A program made the position numbers and the translations under genes. Positions 18,368 through 23,985 of a DNA stretch of 39,984 bases are shown here, piece after piece. The stretch spans positions 1 through 39,984 of the forward strand of contig VBFG01000119.1 of NCBI GenBank assembly GCA_005882635.1. The letters run 5' to 3'. Below the pieces are notes generated by a model. The model made no database searches. It was not told the origin of the DNA and saw nothing but the letters and a program-made list of their open reading frames with translations. Source of the DNA: Chloroflexota bacterium. GTDB lineage: Bacteria > Chloroflexota > Limnocylindria > Limnocylindrales > CSP1-4. Positions within the stretch are counted from its first letter, which is position 1. Each line of letters begins with the position of its first letter.

Positions 18368-19339
18368 TCAGTTGCCGAGGAAGAAGCCCGTCACCCCGGC
18401 CACGACCGCCTCGAACAGGCCGGGCGGCGTCGACGGGTCGACGACCCGGAGGCTCGCCTCGGCGGTCCCGGGGGTCGCGTCACGGACCGTCCCGGGCGGC
18501 GGCCCGTTGCCGCTCGCGCCACCGTTGCCGTTCTCGGCTCCGTTGCCATTGCCGGAGTCGTCCCGGCCGCCCGGCCCGAACCCCAGGCCTTGATCGGCCC
18601 GGTCCGGGTCGATCCTGACCGTCGCGGCGGGCACGACCTCCGGCGCCGGCGTCGGCGTCGGCTTGGGCGTGGGCTTCGGCGTCGGTTTCGGCGTCGCAAC
18701 GGGGCGAGGCTTGGCTGTCGGCTTCGGCGTGGGCTTCGGGGTCGGCTTCGGGGAGGTGCTCGTCGAGCCGCACCGGTCGGCGAAGATCACCGTCCACATC
18801 TTCTTCCCGGTCGGCCCCTTGTACGCGCCGATCCCGATCACGTCCCACGACTTGCCGAGGATGTTCGCGCGATGGCCGGGCGAGTCCATGAACTGGCGCT
18901 GGATCGTCGTGGTCGCGACGTCGTCCGGGTAGTTGTTCCAGCCGATGTTCTCGCCGGCGATCTTGTAGCAGTAGCCCTTCTGGTCGAGCACGTGGAAGAC
19001 GTTGTAGCTGTGTCCGAGGATCGTGTGGCCGAAGTAGTTCCGGACGATCATGTCCTTGCTTCGCCAGCGGGCGACCGAAGCGAGGGTGGAGTCCACCCTC
19101 AGCGCGCGGAGACCGGCCGATGCGCGGGCCTGATTCGTCAGGGTCAGGAGCTGGCGCTCGGAGGCGGAGCTGAACGCGTTGACGTCCCAGGCGAGCGTCG
19201 TCTTCGGCAGGGCGAGGAGACCGATCGACGTCAGCCCGAAGGCGACGGCCAGCATGACCGCCAGGCGTCGCGCTCCGCGTCGACCGAGGACGCGAGGCTC
19301 CGGGAACAGGTGCGGCTGGACGGCAGGGCCGGGGATCAT
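18368..19339 (-). CDS. Secreted CAP (SCP/PR1)-domain protein with Pro-rich linker
   Basis: 323 residues. The N-terminus is basic and then hydrophobic ([19 protein letters not shown]), a signal peptide or anchor. The CAP domain runs from about residue 60 to 190: [20 protein letters not shown], the active-site-like [18 protein letters not shown] and [10 protein letters not shown] are all present. A linker of KPTP repeats follows (about 199-238, with an internal PRPVA break), then a Gly/Asn/Asp-rich low-complexity stretch and a short C-terminal hydrophobic segment ([16 protein letters not shown]). CAP proteins are extracellular with varied roles in adhesion, sterol binding or cell-wall contact; the bacterial function is mostly unknown. 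The gene has a 430-base upstream region with an inverted repeat. Confidence 0.85.
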
Positions 19340-19771: not shown

Positions 19772-20563
19772 TCAGCGCAGCGCGCCCTCCAGTGCCACCC
19801 GCGCGTCGGTACCGGGATCGCGGTCCTTCACGATCAGGGCCGTCGCGATCGACAGCCCGCGCGCCGCGGCCCACGGCCCGGGCGCCGGGCGCGAGCCCGG
19901 GACGACGATGCAGCCCGGCGGGACGACGAGCGGCTGCTCGCGCGTCCCGACGAGCTCGCGCCGGCGGACGAGGTCGAACAGGCGCGACGTCCCGGTGAGC
20001 GTGACGCCGGCCCCGATGACCGCGCCCCGGCCGACCAGGACGCCCTCGAGCAGCTGCGACCCTGCGCCGACGAAGACGTCGTCCTCGACGATCACCGGGC
20101 GCGCCCCGGCCGGCTCGAGCACGCCGCCGATCGTGACCCCCGCTGCGAGATGGACCCGCTCGCCGATCTGGGCGCACGAGCCCACCAGGACATGCGAGTC
20201 GACCATCGTCCCGGCTCCGACCCAGGCGCCGACGTTGACGTACGACGGCGGCATCACGACGACGCCCGGGGCCAGGTACGCCCCGTGCCGGATGGCCGTC
20301 CCACCGGGCACGATCCGGCGATCCGGACCCGGGTCGATCGGGGGCAGCGCCGCGCGGTCGCGGAAGACCAGCGGCCCGACGTTCCAGGTCGTCGTCGTCC
20401 GATCCGCGAATGCCGCCAGGATCGCCTCCTTGGCCTCGGGGTTCACCCGCCAGCCATCGGGCGACGCGGTGTCGGGCTCGGCCGCGCGGACCCGGCCGGC
20501 CGCCAGACCGACGAGGACCTCGGGCCCGGCCACCGGGTCCACGACCGCGCTCGCGAGGCTCAT
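19772..20563 (-). CDS. dapD: Tetrahydrodipicolinate N-acyltransferase (succinyl/acetyl) of lysine biosynthesis
   Basis: 263 residues of left-handed beta-helix acyltransferase. GLSIATALIV near the C-terminus, PPSYVNVGAWVGAGTMVDSH and the run of hexapeptide turns (VLVGSCAQIGERVHLAAGV, VIVEDDVFVGAGS) match DapD, which acylates tetrahydrodipicolinate in the diaminopimelate/lysine pathway. Whether succinyl- or acetyl-CoA is used is not decided here, though the length and N-terminal domain favour DapD. The start is the ATG at 20563, which overlaps the dapA stop (ATGA), so translation is coupled. Last gene of the dapB-dapA-dapD run. Confidence 0.9.
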   Translation of the reverse strand: MSLASAVVDPVAGPEVLVGLAAGRVRAAEPDTASPDGWRVNPEAKEAILAAFADRTTTTWNVGPLVFRDRAALPPIDPGPDRRIVPGGTAIRHGAYLAPGVVVMPPSYVNVGAWVGAGTMVDSHVLVGSCAQIGERVHLAAGVTIGGVLEPAGARPVIVEDDVFVGAGSQLLEGVLVGRGAVIGAGVTLTGTSRLFDLVRRRELVGTREQPLVVPPGCIVVPGSRPAPGPWAAARGLSIATALIVKDRDPGTDARVALEGALR

Positions 20564-21540
20564 GCCGGGACCTCGTCGCGAGCGTTGATCCGGCCGCCGG
20601 CTGCCTCGGCGAGGCCGAGCGCCCGGAGCGCCCCCAGCAGCTCCACCCGGGAGGACGGCGCCAGGGGCAGGAGCGGGAGTCGGACGGAGTCCGCGTCCAG
20701 CAGGCCCATCAGCGCCAGGGCAGCCTTGACCGGGACCGGGTTCGGGCCGCCGGCGAAGTTCGCGAGGAACAGCGGCAGCCAGCGCTCGTGGATCCGACGC
20801 GCGCCGTCCCAGTCGCCAGCCGCCGCGGCCGAGCACAGCGCGACGAGCTCGCCCGGGATCTCGTTGCTCGCCACGGACACGACCCCGTCGCCTCCGAGGG
20901 CGAGCACGGGCAGCGTCCAGGCATCGTCGCCCGCCAGCACGGCGACGTCGCGCGGGCGATCGCGGCAGATCCGGGCGATCTGATCGAGGGTCCCGCTGGC
21001 CTCCTTGATCGCGATCACCCGGGGGTGCTCGGCGAGCCGGAGGAAGACGTCGGCCGGGACGTTCGTGCCCGTCCGCGACGGGACGTTGTAGACGACGATC
21101 GGAAGGTCGCCGTCGTCGGCGATCGCCCGGAAATGGGCCTCCAGCATTCGGCCGTCCGGCCGGTTGTAGTAGGGCGCGACGACGAGCGCGGCGTCGGCCC
21201 CGAGGGCGGCCGCGCGACGCGTCGCGGCGATCGTCGCGGCGGTGTCGTTCGTGCCGGTCCCGGCGACGACCGGGACGCGCCGGCGGGATGGCCGCTCGGC
21301 CGCGGTTTCGACGGTCATGGCGATGATCCGGTCGCGTTCGACCGCGGTCAGCGTCGGCGCCTCCCCGGTGGTCCCGCACGGGACGAGGCCGTCGATCCCG
21401 GCGAGGATCTGCCAGCGGACGAGTCGGCGGAGGCCGTCGTCATCGATCGTCCCGTCGGCGGCGAACGGCGTGACGAGCGCGGTGAGCGCACCGCGGAGGA
21501 CCGGACGAGGACCGGGCGAGGTCCGATCGAGGATGCCCAT
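20560..21540 (-). CDS. dapA: 4-hydroxy-tetrahydrodipicolinate synthase
   Basis: A 326-residue TIM-barrel class I aldolase; the usual length is about 290-300, and the extra residues are at both ends. It condenses pyruvate with aspartate semialdehyde, the first committed step of lysine/diaminopimelate synthesis. VPCGTTGEAPTL, VVYNVPSRTG (Tyr of the catalytic triad) and IAIKEASG (Schiff-base Lys) are intact. ATG at 21540 with GGAAGGAG about 10 bases upstream. It follows dapB after 33 bases and overlaps dapD by 4. Confidence 0.95.
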   Translation of the reverse strand: MGILDRTSPGPRPVLRGALTALVTPFAADGTIDDDGLRRLVRWQILAGIDGLVPCGTTGEAPTLTAVERDRIIAMTVETAAERPSRRRVPVVAGTGTNDTAATIAATRRAAALGADAALVVAPYYNRPDGRMLEAHFRAIADDGDLPIVVYNVPSRTGTNVPADVFLRLAEHPRVIAIKEASGTLDQIARICRDRPRDVAVLAGDDAWTLPVLALGGDGVVSVASNEIPGELVALCSAAAAGDWDGARRIHERWLPLFLANFAGGPNPVPVKAALALMGLLDADSVRLPLLPLAPSSRVELLGALRALGLAEAAGGRINARDEVPA

Positions 21541-21573: not shown

Positions 21574-22329
21574 TCAGGCCGCCGGCTGCGCCGGCGACTC
21601 GGGGGCGGCGTGCCGGCGTGCGGCGATCAAGTCGTCGACGACGGTGTCGAACGGGTGGAGCCCGGGCTGACGCGGTTGGGCCCGCAGCCAGTCGATGGCC
21701 GCGAGCGCTCCGGCCGCATAGCCGGACCGGTCACGGGCGGTGAGGCGGAGCTCGATCGTCTCGCTCGGCGAGTCGAGGCCAACGAGATGGAGGCCCGGCA
21801 TCGCCCCCGATCGAACGACGGCGACCTCGACCACGGCGATCGGCAGATGGGGCGCGATCCGGCGGACGAGCTCACGGGCTGTCCCCGACGGCCGATCCGC
21901 CTTGGCCCGGCGATGCCATTCGACGACCGAGGGATCGAAGCCGCCGATCGCCGCCGCCAACGACGACGCCTCCTCGACCAGGCGCAGGAAGACCGCCGCG
22001 CCCATGGCGAGGTTCGGAGCGACGACGGCCGCCGCGGCGCTGCCCCGGAGTCGCGACGCGACCGCCGCGCGGTCGTCCGCCCAGCCCGTCGTCGCGATGA
22101 CGAACCGCCGGCAGCCGGCGGCCAGGCCCGCCTCGACGTTCGCCAGGACCGCCTCGGCGCGCGACGCGTCGACGATCACGTCGACGGTCGGCTCCGTCCG
22201 GGTCAGGTTGCGCGGATCGTGCCGACCGCTCCGTGGCCGGCCGCGGATCGTGGCCGGTTCGCCGCGCGCCCGGAGCGCAGCCTCGATCGCCGTGCCCAGC
22301 GGGCCGTCACCCAGGATGATCGTCGACAT
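21574..22329 (-). CDS. dapB: 4-hydroxy-tetrahydrodipicolinate reductase
   Basis: A 251-residue NAD(P)H-dependent reductase. The nucleotide loop is GDGPLG (residues 8-13), and the catalytic signature reads EWHRRAKADRPSGTA. The first His and the Lys of the family motif (E-x-H-H-x-x-K-x-D-x-P-S-G-T-A) are kept, and the second His is Arg. A C-terminal DRSGYAAGALAAIDWL is typical. ATG at 22329 with a strong AGGAGG at 22338-22343 (8-base spacing). That site is buried in a hairpin and follows a lysine-codon leader peptide, so translation is probably attenuated by lysine supply. First gene of the dap run, 297 bases after threonine synthase. Confidence 0.88.
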   Translation of the reverse strand: MSTIILGDGPLGTAIEAALRARGEPATIRGRPRSGRHDPRNLTRTEPTVDVIVDASRAEAVLANVEAGLAAGCRRFVIATTGWADDRAAVASRLRGSAAAAVVAPNLAMGAAVFLRLVEEASSLAAAIGGFDPSVVEWHRRAKADRPSGTARELVRRIAPHLPIAVVEVAVVRSGAMPGLHLVGLDSPSETIELRLTARDRSGYAAGALAAIDWLRAQPRQPGLHPFDTVVDDLIAARRHAAPESPAQPAA

Positions 22330-22338
22330 CGGTTCGGC

Positions 22339-22356
22339 CTCCTCGTCATCGAGGAG
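22339..22356 (-). promoter_or_regulatory. Hairpin sequestering the dapB ribosome-binding site
   Basis: On the mRNA strand CTCCTCG, loop ATGA, CGAGGAG form a perfect 7-bp stem. The 3' arm is part of the dapB Shine-Dalgarno sequence (AGGAGG, 22338-22343). The 5' arm overlaps GGCTCCT, which can also pair with AGGAGCC at the start of the upstream hairpin 22422-22445. The two pairings exclude each other, as in an attenuator. The pairings are seen; the switch is inferred. Confidence 0.6.
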
Positions 22357-22388
22357 CCGGCGGGATCGAAGGAGCCAGGAATCAACGA

Positions 22389-22417
22389 GCCGCGGTCACC
22401 TGGTTGGTGTCCGCGGC
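22389..22417 (-). promoter_or_regulatory. Second leader hairpin (12-bp stem, one mismatch)
   Basis: On the mRNA strand GCCGCGGACACC and GGTGACCGCGGC pair around the loop AACCA with a single mismatch. No U-run follows, so it is not a standard terminator. It sits between the lysine leader peptide and dapB. Confidence 0.55.
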
Positions 22418-22421
22418 CCCT

Positions 22422-22445
22422 GGAGCCTCCGTGCCCGGAGGCTCC
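22422..22445 (-). promoter_or_regulatory. First leader hairpin (perfect 10-bp stem)
   Basis: On the mRNA strand GGAGCCTCCG, loop GGCA, CGGAGGCTCC form a perfect stem 27 bases after the stop of the lysine-rich leader peptide. GGAGGC and GGGGCTC near the end of the peptide gene, and GGCTCC twice downstream, are complementary to the 5' arm, giving alternative folds. Confidence 0.6.
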
Positions 22446-22471
22446 TGTTCGGTCGTTCGCTTGCGCGCCGT

Positions 22472-22552
22472 TCAGAGCCCCAGGGCCCGTGCCTCCCGGC
22501 AGGGCCGCCAGAGCTTCTTCTTGGCCTCGTCGGTCAGGAAGATGCGGCGCAT
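22472..22552 (-). CDS. Lysine-codon leader peptide (26 residues) upstream of dapB
   Basis: A short frame, ATG at 22552 to TGA at 22472-22474, encoding 26 residues. Residues 9-15 read EAKKKLW: three consecutive lysine codons (AAG AAG AAG, residues 11-13) in a leader that precedes lysine-pathway genes. The peptide ends shortly before a chain of hairpins, the last of which hides the dapB ribosome-binding site. Ribosome stalling at the Lys codons when charged tRNA-Lys is scarce would alter the pairing and release dapB. No good Shine-Dalgarno precedes it. An AT-rich stretch just upstream (TTGCAT, then AAAGTAT) may be a promoter giving a nearly leaderless message; readthrough from thrC, 75 bases upstream, is the alternative. 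The frame and codons are seen; the regulatory role is inferred. Confidence 0.6.
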   Translation of the reverse strand: MRRIFLTDEAKKKLWRPCREARALGL

Positions 22553-22626
22553 GTGAATACTTTGCAGCCCGATCCGCAAATATGCAAGCGGCAGCTCGGT
22601 TGCCGTTCGGAATCCATCGTCGGCCC

Positions 22627-23985
22627 CTAACTCCCGAACGCCGCCGCGAACGCCGAGTAATTCGGTTCGATCGGCACACCGAGGCCGTCACTGCCGGCGC
22701 CCTCGTCGCCGAGCGCGAACCGTCGGGCATCGGGCGTCTTGACGCCGTTGCCGGACAGGATCGCCACGACCTCATCGCCGTCGCGGATCACGCCGCGCGC
22801 CCGGGCCGCCTCGATCGCCCCGACGGTCACCCCGCCGGCCGTCTCGACGAAGATCCCCTCGGCCGCCGCCGTCCGCCGGATCGCCGACGCAGTCACGGCA
22901 TCCGGGACCGCCTCGATCGATCCGCCGGTGCGGCGCGCCAGCTCGAGCGCCCCGCCTCCGTCCGCCGGCGACCCGATCGCGAGCGAGCGCACGATCGTGT
23001 CCGGCGTTCGAACGGGCCGGATCTCGTCGACGCCCTCGGCGAACGCCGTCGCGACCGGCGCGCAGCCCTCGGGCTGTCCGCCGACGAATCGGACGACCCC
23101 TGGCTCGACCAGGCCGATCTCGACGAGCTCGTCGAAGCCCTTGGCGATCTTCGTGAACATCGATCCGGACGCGATCGGCCCGACGAGGACGTCCGGCAGG
23201 CGCCAGCCGAGCTGCTCGGCAACCTCGAAGGCGATCGACTTGCTGCCCTCGGCGTAGAACGGCCGGAGGTTGACGTTGACGAACGCCCAGCCCTCCTCGT
23301 CGGCGATCTCGAGGCTCAGCCGATTGATCTCGTCGTAGGTCCCCTCGACGCGGACGACGGTCGCGCCGTAGCTCAGGGCGTGTTCGACCTTGGCCGACTC
23401 GAGATCGGCCGGGACGAAGACGAAGGCGCGCAGCCCGGCGGCAGCCGCGGCCGCGGCGGTGGCCCCAGCCAGGTTGCCGGTCGAGGCGCAGGCGAGCGTG
23501 TCGAAGCCGAACTCGACAGCACGGGCCGTGGCGACCGCGACGACGCGGTCCTTGAAGCTGAGCGTCGGGTTGCGGGTGTCGTCCTTGAGGTGGAGCGTCG
23601 TGCCGGCGCCCAGGCCCAGCTCTCCGGCGAGGCGCTCAGCTCGGACGAGCGCGGTCGACCCGACGGCGAGGCCGCGCTCCGGAGCGCGTTCGACGGGGAG
23701 CAGCTCCAGGTAGCGCCAGATTCCCGGCGCCCGCCGTGCGATCGCATCGCGGGTGAGGGTGGAGCGAGCGATGTCGTGGTCGTACTCGACCTCGAGCGGT
23801 CCGAAACAGGCCGGACAGATGAAGCTCGGGCCGAGCGCCTCCGGCCGGCCGCAGGCGCGACAGCGCAGGCCGCGGACGTGGGATCGCCGCTGGGGCAGCG
23901 CGTCGGCCGGTGCGGCATCCGGCGGGGCAGCCGGTTCGGCGGGCGGCGTGGATTGCACTGGTCGGATCGCTGTCTCGAGGGTCAT
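22627..23985 (-). CDS. thrC: Threonine synthase (PLP-dependent)
   Basis: 452 residues. After a Pro/Ala-rich N-terminus comes a zinc-ribbon-like segment (CRACGRPE and CPACFGPLEVEYD), common in this class of threonine synthases. The PLP Lys is in NPTLSFKDR, the phosphate-cradle region in ACASTGNLAGATAAAAA, and SGNGVKTPD occurs near the C-terminus. It converts O-phosphohomoserine to threonine. A SAM-I riboswitch lies 88 bases upstream of the ATG at 23985, tying expression to S-adenosylmethionine. The dap genes follow on the same strand. Because of the riboswitch, a methionine-related activity on the same substrate should be kept in mind, but sequence motifs favour threonine synthase. Confidence 0.9.
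   Translation of the reverse strand: MTLETAIRPVQSTPPAEPAAPPDAAPADALPQRRSHVRGLRCRACGRPEALGPSFICPACFGPLEVEYDHDIARSTLTRDAIARRAPGIWRYLELLPVERAPERGLAVGSTALVRAERLAGELGLGAGTTLHLKDDTRNPTLSFKDRVVAVATARAVEFGFDTLACASTGNLAGATAAAAAAAGLRAFVFVPADLESAKVEHALSYGATVVRVEGTYDEINRLSLEIADEEGWAFVNVNLRPFYAEGSKSIAFEVAEQLGWRLPDVLVGPIASGSMFTKIAKGFDELVEIGLVEPGVVRFVGGQPEGCAPVATAFAEGVDEIRPVRTPDTIVRSLAIGSPADGGGALELARRTGGSIEAVPDAVTASAIRRTAAAEGIFVETAGGVTVGAIEAARARGVIRDGDEVVAILSGNGVKTPDARRFALGDEGAGSDGLGVPIEPNYSAFAAAFGS

Follow-up and report, generated by a model that had tools for sequence, protein, structure and literature searches.

Attenuators of the his and trp type in Proteobacteria have a leader peptide containing many residues of the amino acid whose genes they regulate, mutually exclusive RNA stems, a terminator ahead of the first structural gene and a leader stop codon at the second strand. 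The antiterminator is the 2:3 pairing in the trp attenuator and the B:C plus D:E pairings in the his attenuator. Lysine and methionine genes are usually regarded as being under the control of riboswitches, T-boxes or repressors. The locus described here, whose RNA strands we label A to F in 5' to 3' order, shares the features listed above for his- and trp-type attenuators, the terminator being putative in the window's own copy, and differs from them in its Lys sensor, its probably leaderless mRNA and a proposed long-range A:E pairing formed around B:C.

The best studied functional counterpart is the set of leaderless polycysteine leader ORFs ahead of mycobacterial cys genes (Canestrari et al. 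2020, as cited in PMC13236596). A survey of Actinobacteria reported that Trp, Cys and branched-chain genes have leader peptides, with no conserved terminator at the cys leaders and with no leader peptides or RNA structures ahead of lysine or methionine operons (PMC1262725). The mycobacterial and actinobacterial cys leaders, short leaderless frames with Cys codons ahead of cys genes, have their counterpart in the probably leaderless Cys type reported below; unlike the actinobacterial cys leaders, our elements have a terminator and a scaffold, with A:B and A:E pairings, that is common to the Lys and Met types. In Streptomyces lividans, the accessible part of PMC8079986 describes a leaderless metL ahead of metNIQ, as well as a SAM riboswitch ahead of threonine genes. 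metL, itself leaderless, is similar to our probably leaderless elements also in mixing Met with Cys codons (CMC), and differs, within that part of the source, in coming from a single genome, with a terminator not recognised and no scaffold common to other sensors reported. SEP5 of Sinorhizobium meliloti, located ahead of an aspartate-pathway gene, was suggested to be a leader peptide with Thr and Lys codons (PMC10117765, in part); it differs in its composition of six Thr and three Lys codons, and the accessible part of that source gives no structural or comparative support. Attenuation across bacteria is the subject of Lopatovskaya 2010 (cited in PMC4833913). In the open literature we found neither a characterised Lys-codon attenuator nor the term 'lysine attenuator', and priority is uncertain. 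The class of ribosome-mediated attenuation is known, and the lysine sensor and the exchangeable scaffold appear to be new.

We analysed a 39,984-nt stretch of Chloroflexota DNA (the window), in which the minus-strand segment 22587-22378 very probably acts as a ribosome-mediated attenuator of transcription, with charged lysyl-tRNA as the signal sensed and the lysine operon dapB-dapA(-dapD) under its control, and belongs to a family with a scaffold bearing Lys, Met or Cys codons.

The dapB locus and its leader peptide gene

The order of features on the minus strand of the window is SAM riboswitch, thrC, the element, dapB, dapA and a probable dapD, the last assigned by reading of its translation:

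24180-24074, minus strand: SAM riboswitch (Rfam, 70.5 bits), upstream of the window's thrC
22627..23985, minus strand: thrC (TIGR00260, 246 bits, above cut-off), upstream of the element
21574..22329, minus strand: dapB, 4-hydroxy-tetrahydrodipicolinate reductase, the first gene 3' of the element
20560..21540, minus strand: dapA, the next lysine-operon gene (TIGR00674, 298 bits, above cut-off)

The identity of dapB is given by DapB_C (E 6.5e-23) and DapB_N (2.3e-6), with TIGR00036 reaching 88.5 bits, below its cut-off of 122. Across 56 dapB loci with upstream sequence, thrC was found 5' of the element only at L001 and L002, that is, in the window's genus only, and across relatives it is dapB, and not thrC, that the element accompanies. 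Its position between thrC and dapB would suit a thrC terminator accompanied by a chance frame; given the restriction of the upstream thrC to one genus, the promoter-like spacing of the element's own and its occurrence with dapB at 58 loci, we assign this explanation a practically negligible probability. Elsewhere on the minus strand of the window, a frame at 18368-19339 resembles a CAP/SCP-type domain with a tail of PKPTPKPT repeats behind it.

The 5' part of the element comprises the following features:

22559..22587, minus strand: predicted promoter, with −35 TTGCAT (22587-22582), a 17-nt spacer and a poor −10 CAAAGT (22564-22559)
22472..22552, minus strand: leader peptide gene, 26 codons plus TGA (22474-22472), MRRIFLTDEAKKKLWRPCREARALGL; frame kept in the dapB leaders examined
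22514..22522, minus strand: sensor codons AAG AAG AAG, residues 11-13, of which residues 11 and 13 are the constrained positions

An earlier sequence-only reading had proposed a 26-codon frame with AAG AAG AAG at residues 11-13, encoding a Lys-codon leader peptide that governs dapB. The minus-strand sequence 22552-22472 bears out the frame, and the proposed role is supported by conservation of the Lys codons and of the frame, as well as by covariation in 58 homologues (see below). A covariance model built from 20 dapB leaders (R1) matched in 74 of 177 genomes of the class, with no match outside the class among 400 genomes of the phylum, and all 58 Lys-type loci examined precede dapB. The sole match in a scan of named relatives, on a contig of the MAG 'Chloroflexi bacterium isolate fen_1046' (L218), carries the same Lys leader. 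Within this one Chloroflexota class, Lys residues occupy both fixed positions (K.K) in 53/58 dapB leaders and the second position in 57/58, the latter compared with 0/78 other elements (Fisher 6e-38, relatedness ignored). Synonymous AAA codons occur among the sensor codons in L012, L057, L060 and L111. The N-terminal half of the peptide drifts among relatives and the short frame and its sensor codons persist, which is the pattern that the earlier reading had suggested looking for. No NCBIfam match was obtained with the leader peptides tested, whether to an unrelated protein, which the same reading had named as a check, or to a conserved small protein, an interpretation also disfavoured by the occurrence of the core in shifted frames (see below). 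The sensor codons of the short frame specify the amino acid that the downstream genes produce, and conservation of the frame points to its translation.

In 118 of 136 elements, TTG[AC] was found 35-40 nt 5' of an in-frame start (6% expected for one start), with A+T-rich positions at the expected site of the −10 box, and an SD-like motif at only one of these 118 leader starts. Conversely, the ATG or GTG found 35-40 nt 3' of TTG[AC] is in frame with the sensor codons in 106 of 107 cases. The window's predicted promoter places the transcription start at or beside the leader ATG; a strict sigma-70 consensus scan of the window did not call it. Judging from this spacing, which is the anatomy of a leaderless mRNA, we infer that transcription starts at the leader ATG.

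RNA structure and covariation

The 177-nt leader folds at −101.5 kcal/mol, compared with −75.0 ± 4.0 in 200 dinucleotide shuffles (z = −6.6). Its minimum free energy (MFE) fold consists of three successive stems, A:B, C:D and E:F, and a fourth small hairpin over the dapB Shine–Dalgarno (SD) sequence:

22498..22515, minus strand: strand A of stem A:B in the MFE fold, starting in the third Lys codon
22476..22493, minus strand: strand B of stem A:B, just 5' of the stop codon of the leader; likely to pair with C in the alternative fold
22422..22445, minus strand: stem C:D in the MFE fold, 10 bp perfect, GGAGCCTCCG / CGGAGGCTCC (22445-22436 with 22431-22422)
22389..22417, minus strand: stem E:F, putative terminator hairpin, GCCGCGGACACC / GGTGACCGCGGC (22417-22406 with 22400-22389), from the MFE fold and covariation
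22338..22356, minus strand: hairpin over the dapB SD (AGGAGG, 22343-22338), 7 bp perfect (22356-22350 with 22345-22339)

The three hairpins described in the sequence-only reading (10-bp perfect, 12-bp with one mismatch, and 7-bp perfect over AGGAGG) are all present; the A:B stem, the A:E helix, the terminator character in relatives and the promoter at the ATG are additions of the present analysis.

Alignment of 58 homologous dapB leaders showed that 92.9% of cells pair and that the three stems have strong covariation. A:B, a 17-bp stem inside the peptide gene, has 92.3% of cells paired and 5 pairs with double changes; C:D has double changes at all 9 modelled pairs, and E:F, with 12 bp and one A-A mismatch, at 7 pairs. 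This amounts to 21 of 37 pairs double-changed versus 8.4 ± 1.7 in shuffles (0/500 as high), in an alignment that was fitted to the covariance model and is hence biased towards it. Covariation of the stems had been another check suggested by the earlier reading. Shifting the partner by one column in this alignment reduced pairing to 44-50%. An unfitted 20-sequence MAFFT alignment agrees with these results more weakly (8 double-changed pairs versus 3.9, 3/500), and a DNA search of 61 genomes showed similarity centred on the element in approximately 20 relatives.

A structured RNA ahead of a lysine gene is also what a classical lysine-binding riboswitch with an incidental frame would look like, and our element would share with the lysine riboswitch (RF00168) the control of lysine genes at the RNA level. 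It differs in that neither the window, searched with E values up to 10, nor any of the 37 genomes searched from the window's family matched RF00168; no Rfam family was matched at 15 related attenuator loci. Moreover, the frame is conserved, and the fold stays constant while codon identity follows the pathway. We therefore consider a lysine-binding riboswitch extremely unlikely here. Three lysine riboswitches (L031, L032 and L033, families f3 and f5) precede a gene that, by reading of the protein, appears to encode homocitrate synthase; as this enzyme belongs to a different lysine pathway, riboswitch and attenuator are not a simple exchange of sensors. The T-box family (RF00230) had no match at the element, with matches in genome G000 on other contigs. 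T-box matches were seen in 41 of 61 genomes (e.g. G000:C79:8125-8415), mostly at 25-80 bits, below the Rfam cut-off of 93; their recurrence across the class probably reflects a divergent T-box form.

Putative terminator and SD hairpin

E:F is followed by a U-tract, which is weak in the window and mostly strong in relatives:

22378..22388, minus strand: U-tract site, TCGTTGATTCC in the window, compared with, e.g., CTTTTTTG in L016

The most T-rich 8-nt stretch at this site has six or more T in 84/138 elements, and 4 in the window. A strict terminator scan of the window did not call its E:F copy, in which the hairpin is strong and the U-tract weak. Because a U-run follows the second hairpin in most relatives, the element would be a transcription attenuator rather than a mainly translational one, and the window's copy may be leaky or reliant on the SD hairpin. 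In 34/37 relatives, the dapB SD is less accessible than with shuffled upstream sequence (0.21 versus 0.44 unpaired). The SD hairpin itself is kept in 34/37 relatives while its sequence changes, and it may add a layer of translational control.

The sequence-only reading had held that stalling at Lys codons frees dapB translation. Such translational attenuation, in which stalling rearranges the RNA and opens the SD hairpin and the second hairpin is no true terminator, would account for the conserved SD hairpin and for the weak U-tract of the window, and is at odds both with the U-run after E:F in most relatives and with the pairing of the anti-SD arm to C or E, which across relatives is not above that in shuffles; we regard it as unlikely. 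The AGGAGCC/GGCTCCT pairing between the stem-II arm and the anti-SD arm, also part of that reading, is present in the window, with complementarity no better than in shuffled sequence across relatives.

Alternative pairings and proposed mechanism

Two short motifs are the most invariant nucleotides of the element:

22502..22508, minus strand: GCGGCCC core, directly 3' of the sensor codons; 5' side of the proposed antiterminator A:E
22413..22419, minus strand: GGGCCGC at the foot of the terminator, overlapping its 5' arm; 3' side of the proposed antiterminator A:E

At each of its seven positions, GGGCCGC has the same nucleotide in 57-58 of the 58 Lys elements and in 28-29 of the 29 Met/Cys elements, and the 7-bp A:E complementarity is kept in 58/58 and 29/29, respectively. 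The main stem of the terminator does not require the G's at the start of E, and their invariance points to another partner. In the Lys elements, all 399 A:E cells are paired (100%) with 2 double changes, a result reached by 1/500 shuffles. The compensatory changes are C-G to U-A, in L117 and L122; variation is confined to two of the seven pairs and both changes also suit E:F, so the evidence for A:E is strong and not exclusive.

We then folded 58 Lys and 29 Met/Cys elements in stages, each stepwise with the nucleotides covered by the ribosome hidden. A ribosome placed on the first sensor codon allowed B:C to form, followed by A:E once E had been made (in Lys elements, means of 6.9 and 8.1 pairs). 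When it was placed at the stop codon, C:D formed and then E:F. D:E averaged 0-1 pairs at every stage, and the six-strand arrangement of the his type was accordingly not found by staged folding. In these computations, A:E conservation and staged folding together yield an alternative pairing against the terminator that depends on ribosome position. At equilibrium, E:F still formed in the full-length stalled RNA, and the antiterminator must consequently act co-transcriptionally, as in other attenuators. B:C is paired in 88% of cells with weak covariation, its duplex strength being not above chance (swapped partners p = 0.11; shuffled B, median p 0.20); we consider this pairing likely. On conservation and modelling, A:E is probably the antiterminator. 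Relative to the sequence-only reading, the element is, by comparative sequence analysis, still a conserved Lys-codon attenuator at dapB, and the mechanism now proposed is transcriptional instead of translational, with an A:E switch in place of simple hairpins.

We propose the following sequence of events. The mRNA would probably start, leaderless, at the leader ATG. When lysine is plentiful, the ribosome would clear the Lys codons and run on to the leader stop codon, where strand B ends; C:D would form, followed by the terminator E:F, and transcription would end 5' of dapB. When lysine is scarce, the ribosome would wait on the Lys codons and cover the outer 5' strand of A:B, with the core (GCGGCCC) left at the leading edge of the ribosome; B would then pair with C, and the core with GGGCCGC before the 3' arm of the terminator is made, giving A:E around B:C and allowing the polymerase to read through into dapB. 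If the leader were not translated, A:B, C:D and E:F would form in order and transcription would stop. The hairpin over the dapB SD may contribute translational control in addition. The stalled ribosome would thus probably tell the cell which amino acid runs short.

Paralogous elements with Met or Cys sensors

Weaker R1 matches were not noise; they turned out to be leaders of the same build bearing other sensor codons. A second covariance model (R2), built from 29 Met/Cys elements and with covariation computed, recovers Lys elements as well (G000, E 2.6e-11), which indicates a scaffold common to the Lys, Met and Cys types. The sensor residues lie at −5 and −3, counted from the arginine codon of the GCGGCCC core. 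Ahead of metY, the M.M pattern was seen in 48/50 elements and Met at the second position in 50/50. C.C was present in 7/8 elements ahead of cysE and of cysteine/cystathionine beta-synthase (cysK-like) genes; in L201, the sole cysE exception, C-L-C is displaced by a one-codon insertion. One Lys leader, L020, has K-S-K in a frame shifted relative to the core. As assigned from sequence, the identity of the sensor codon matches the downstream pathway (Lys/dapB, Met/metY and Cys/cysE).

The strong conservation of the residues 3' of the sensor codons in Lys-type leaders could also be explained by an arrest peptide, with the conserved WRPCREAR acting in the exit tunnel and lysine or another ligand triggering arrest. 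Conservation nevertheless appears to operate at the RNA level: the GCGGCCC sequence is kept in shifted frames, reading AAR in L020 and CGP in L179, and the Met and Cys types keep this RNA core with different residues. The stop position also varies by genus, following EARA, EARP or EARALGL. We hold an arrest peptide to be highly improbable.

We hold it somewhat more likely than not that there is a class-wide family of attenuators with one RNA scaffold, in which two exchangeable codons at −5/−3 set the amino acid sensed, the core, flush with the front of the stalled ribosome, serves as antiterminator strand by capturing the 5' arm of the terminator, and new sensors arose when codons were exchanged on duplicate copies of the scaffold. 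Throughout a Chloroflexota class, lysine, methionine and cysteine seem to be sensed through stalling at their codons, with one RNA design that is used repeatedly. In this natural series it is mainly the sensor codons that differ, so that the influence of ribosome position on the choice of RNA fold could be tested directly, and the scaffold could be used ready-made for amino-acid sensors. A search with R2 for further sensors (Trp, His, Leu and Thr) in 12 genomes, at E up to 5, returned only the known types and weak matches.

Beyond metY and cysE, M.M was found in L182, ahead of a gene for a transporter ATPase most similar to those of the nitrate/sulfonate types, and a C-V-C-M-C leader is followed by a sulfite/nitrite-reductase-like gene (L165). 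In two other genera (L179 and L198), thrC follows an M.M (Met-Ala-Met) leader built on this scaffold; with the SAM riboswitch ahead of thrC in the window, this gives two methionine-related sensors for one gene. Met-Cys-Met leaders of the same scaffold lie ahead of carbonic-anhydrase-like and OsmC-like genes (L073, L084, L097, L092, L164, L176-L178 and L181). These two groups are less regular, with degenerate sensors in some members (L186, L189, L190 and L194). Putative control of the Met/Cys type suggests sulfur-related functions for the OsmC-like and carbonic-anhydrase-like proteins of uncultured bacteria. In genome G059, a Met-Cys-Met leader is divergent from the dapB Lys leader, approximately 370 nt apart (L020/L173/L203); the 183-aa protein downstream of this Met-Cys-Met leader had no NCBIfam match.

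Six other candidates (L210, L211 and L213-L216) were ruled out as leaders of the Lys/Met/Cys scaffold on reading their sequences. Two of them, L210 (G170:C1:83867-84006) and L211 (G059:C7:270508-270646), are structured leaders of another scaffold, with two hairpins and a U-run, and precede ABC transporter ATPase genes in family f4.
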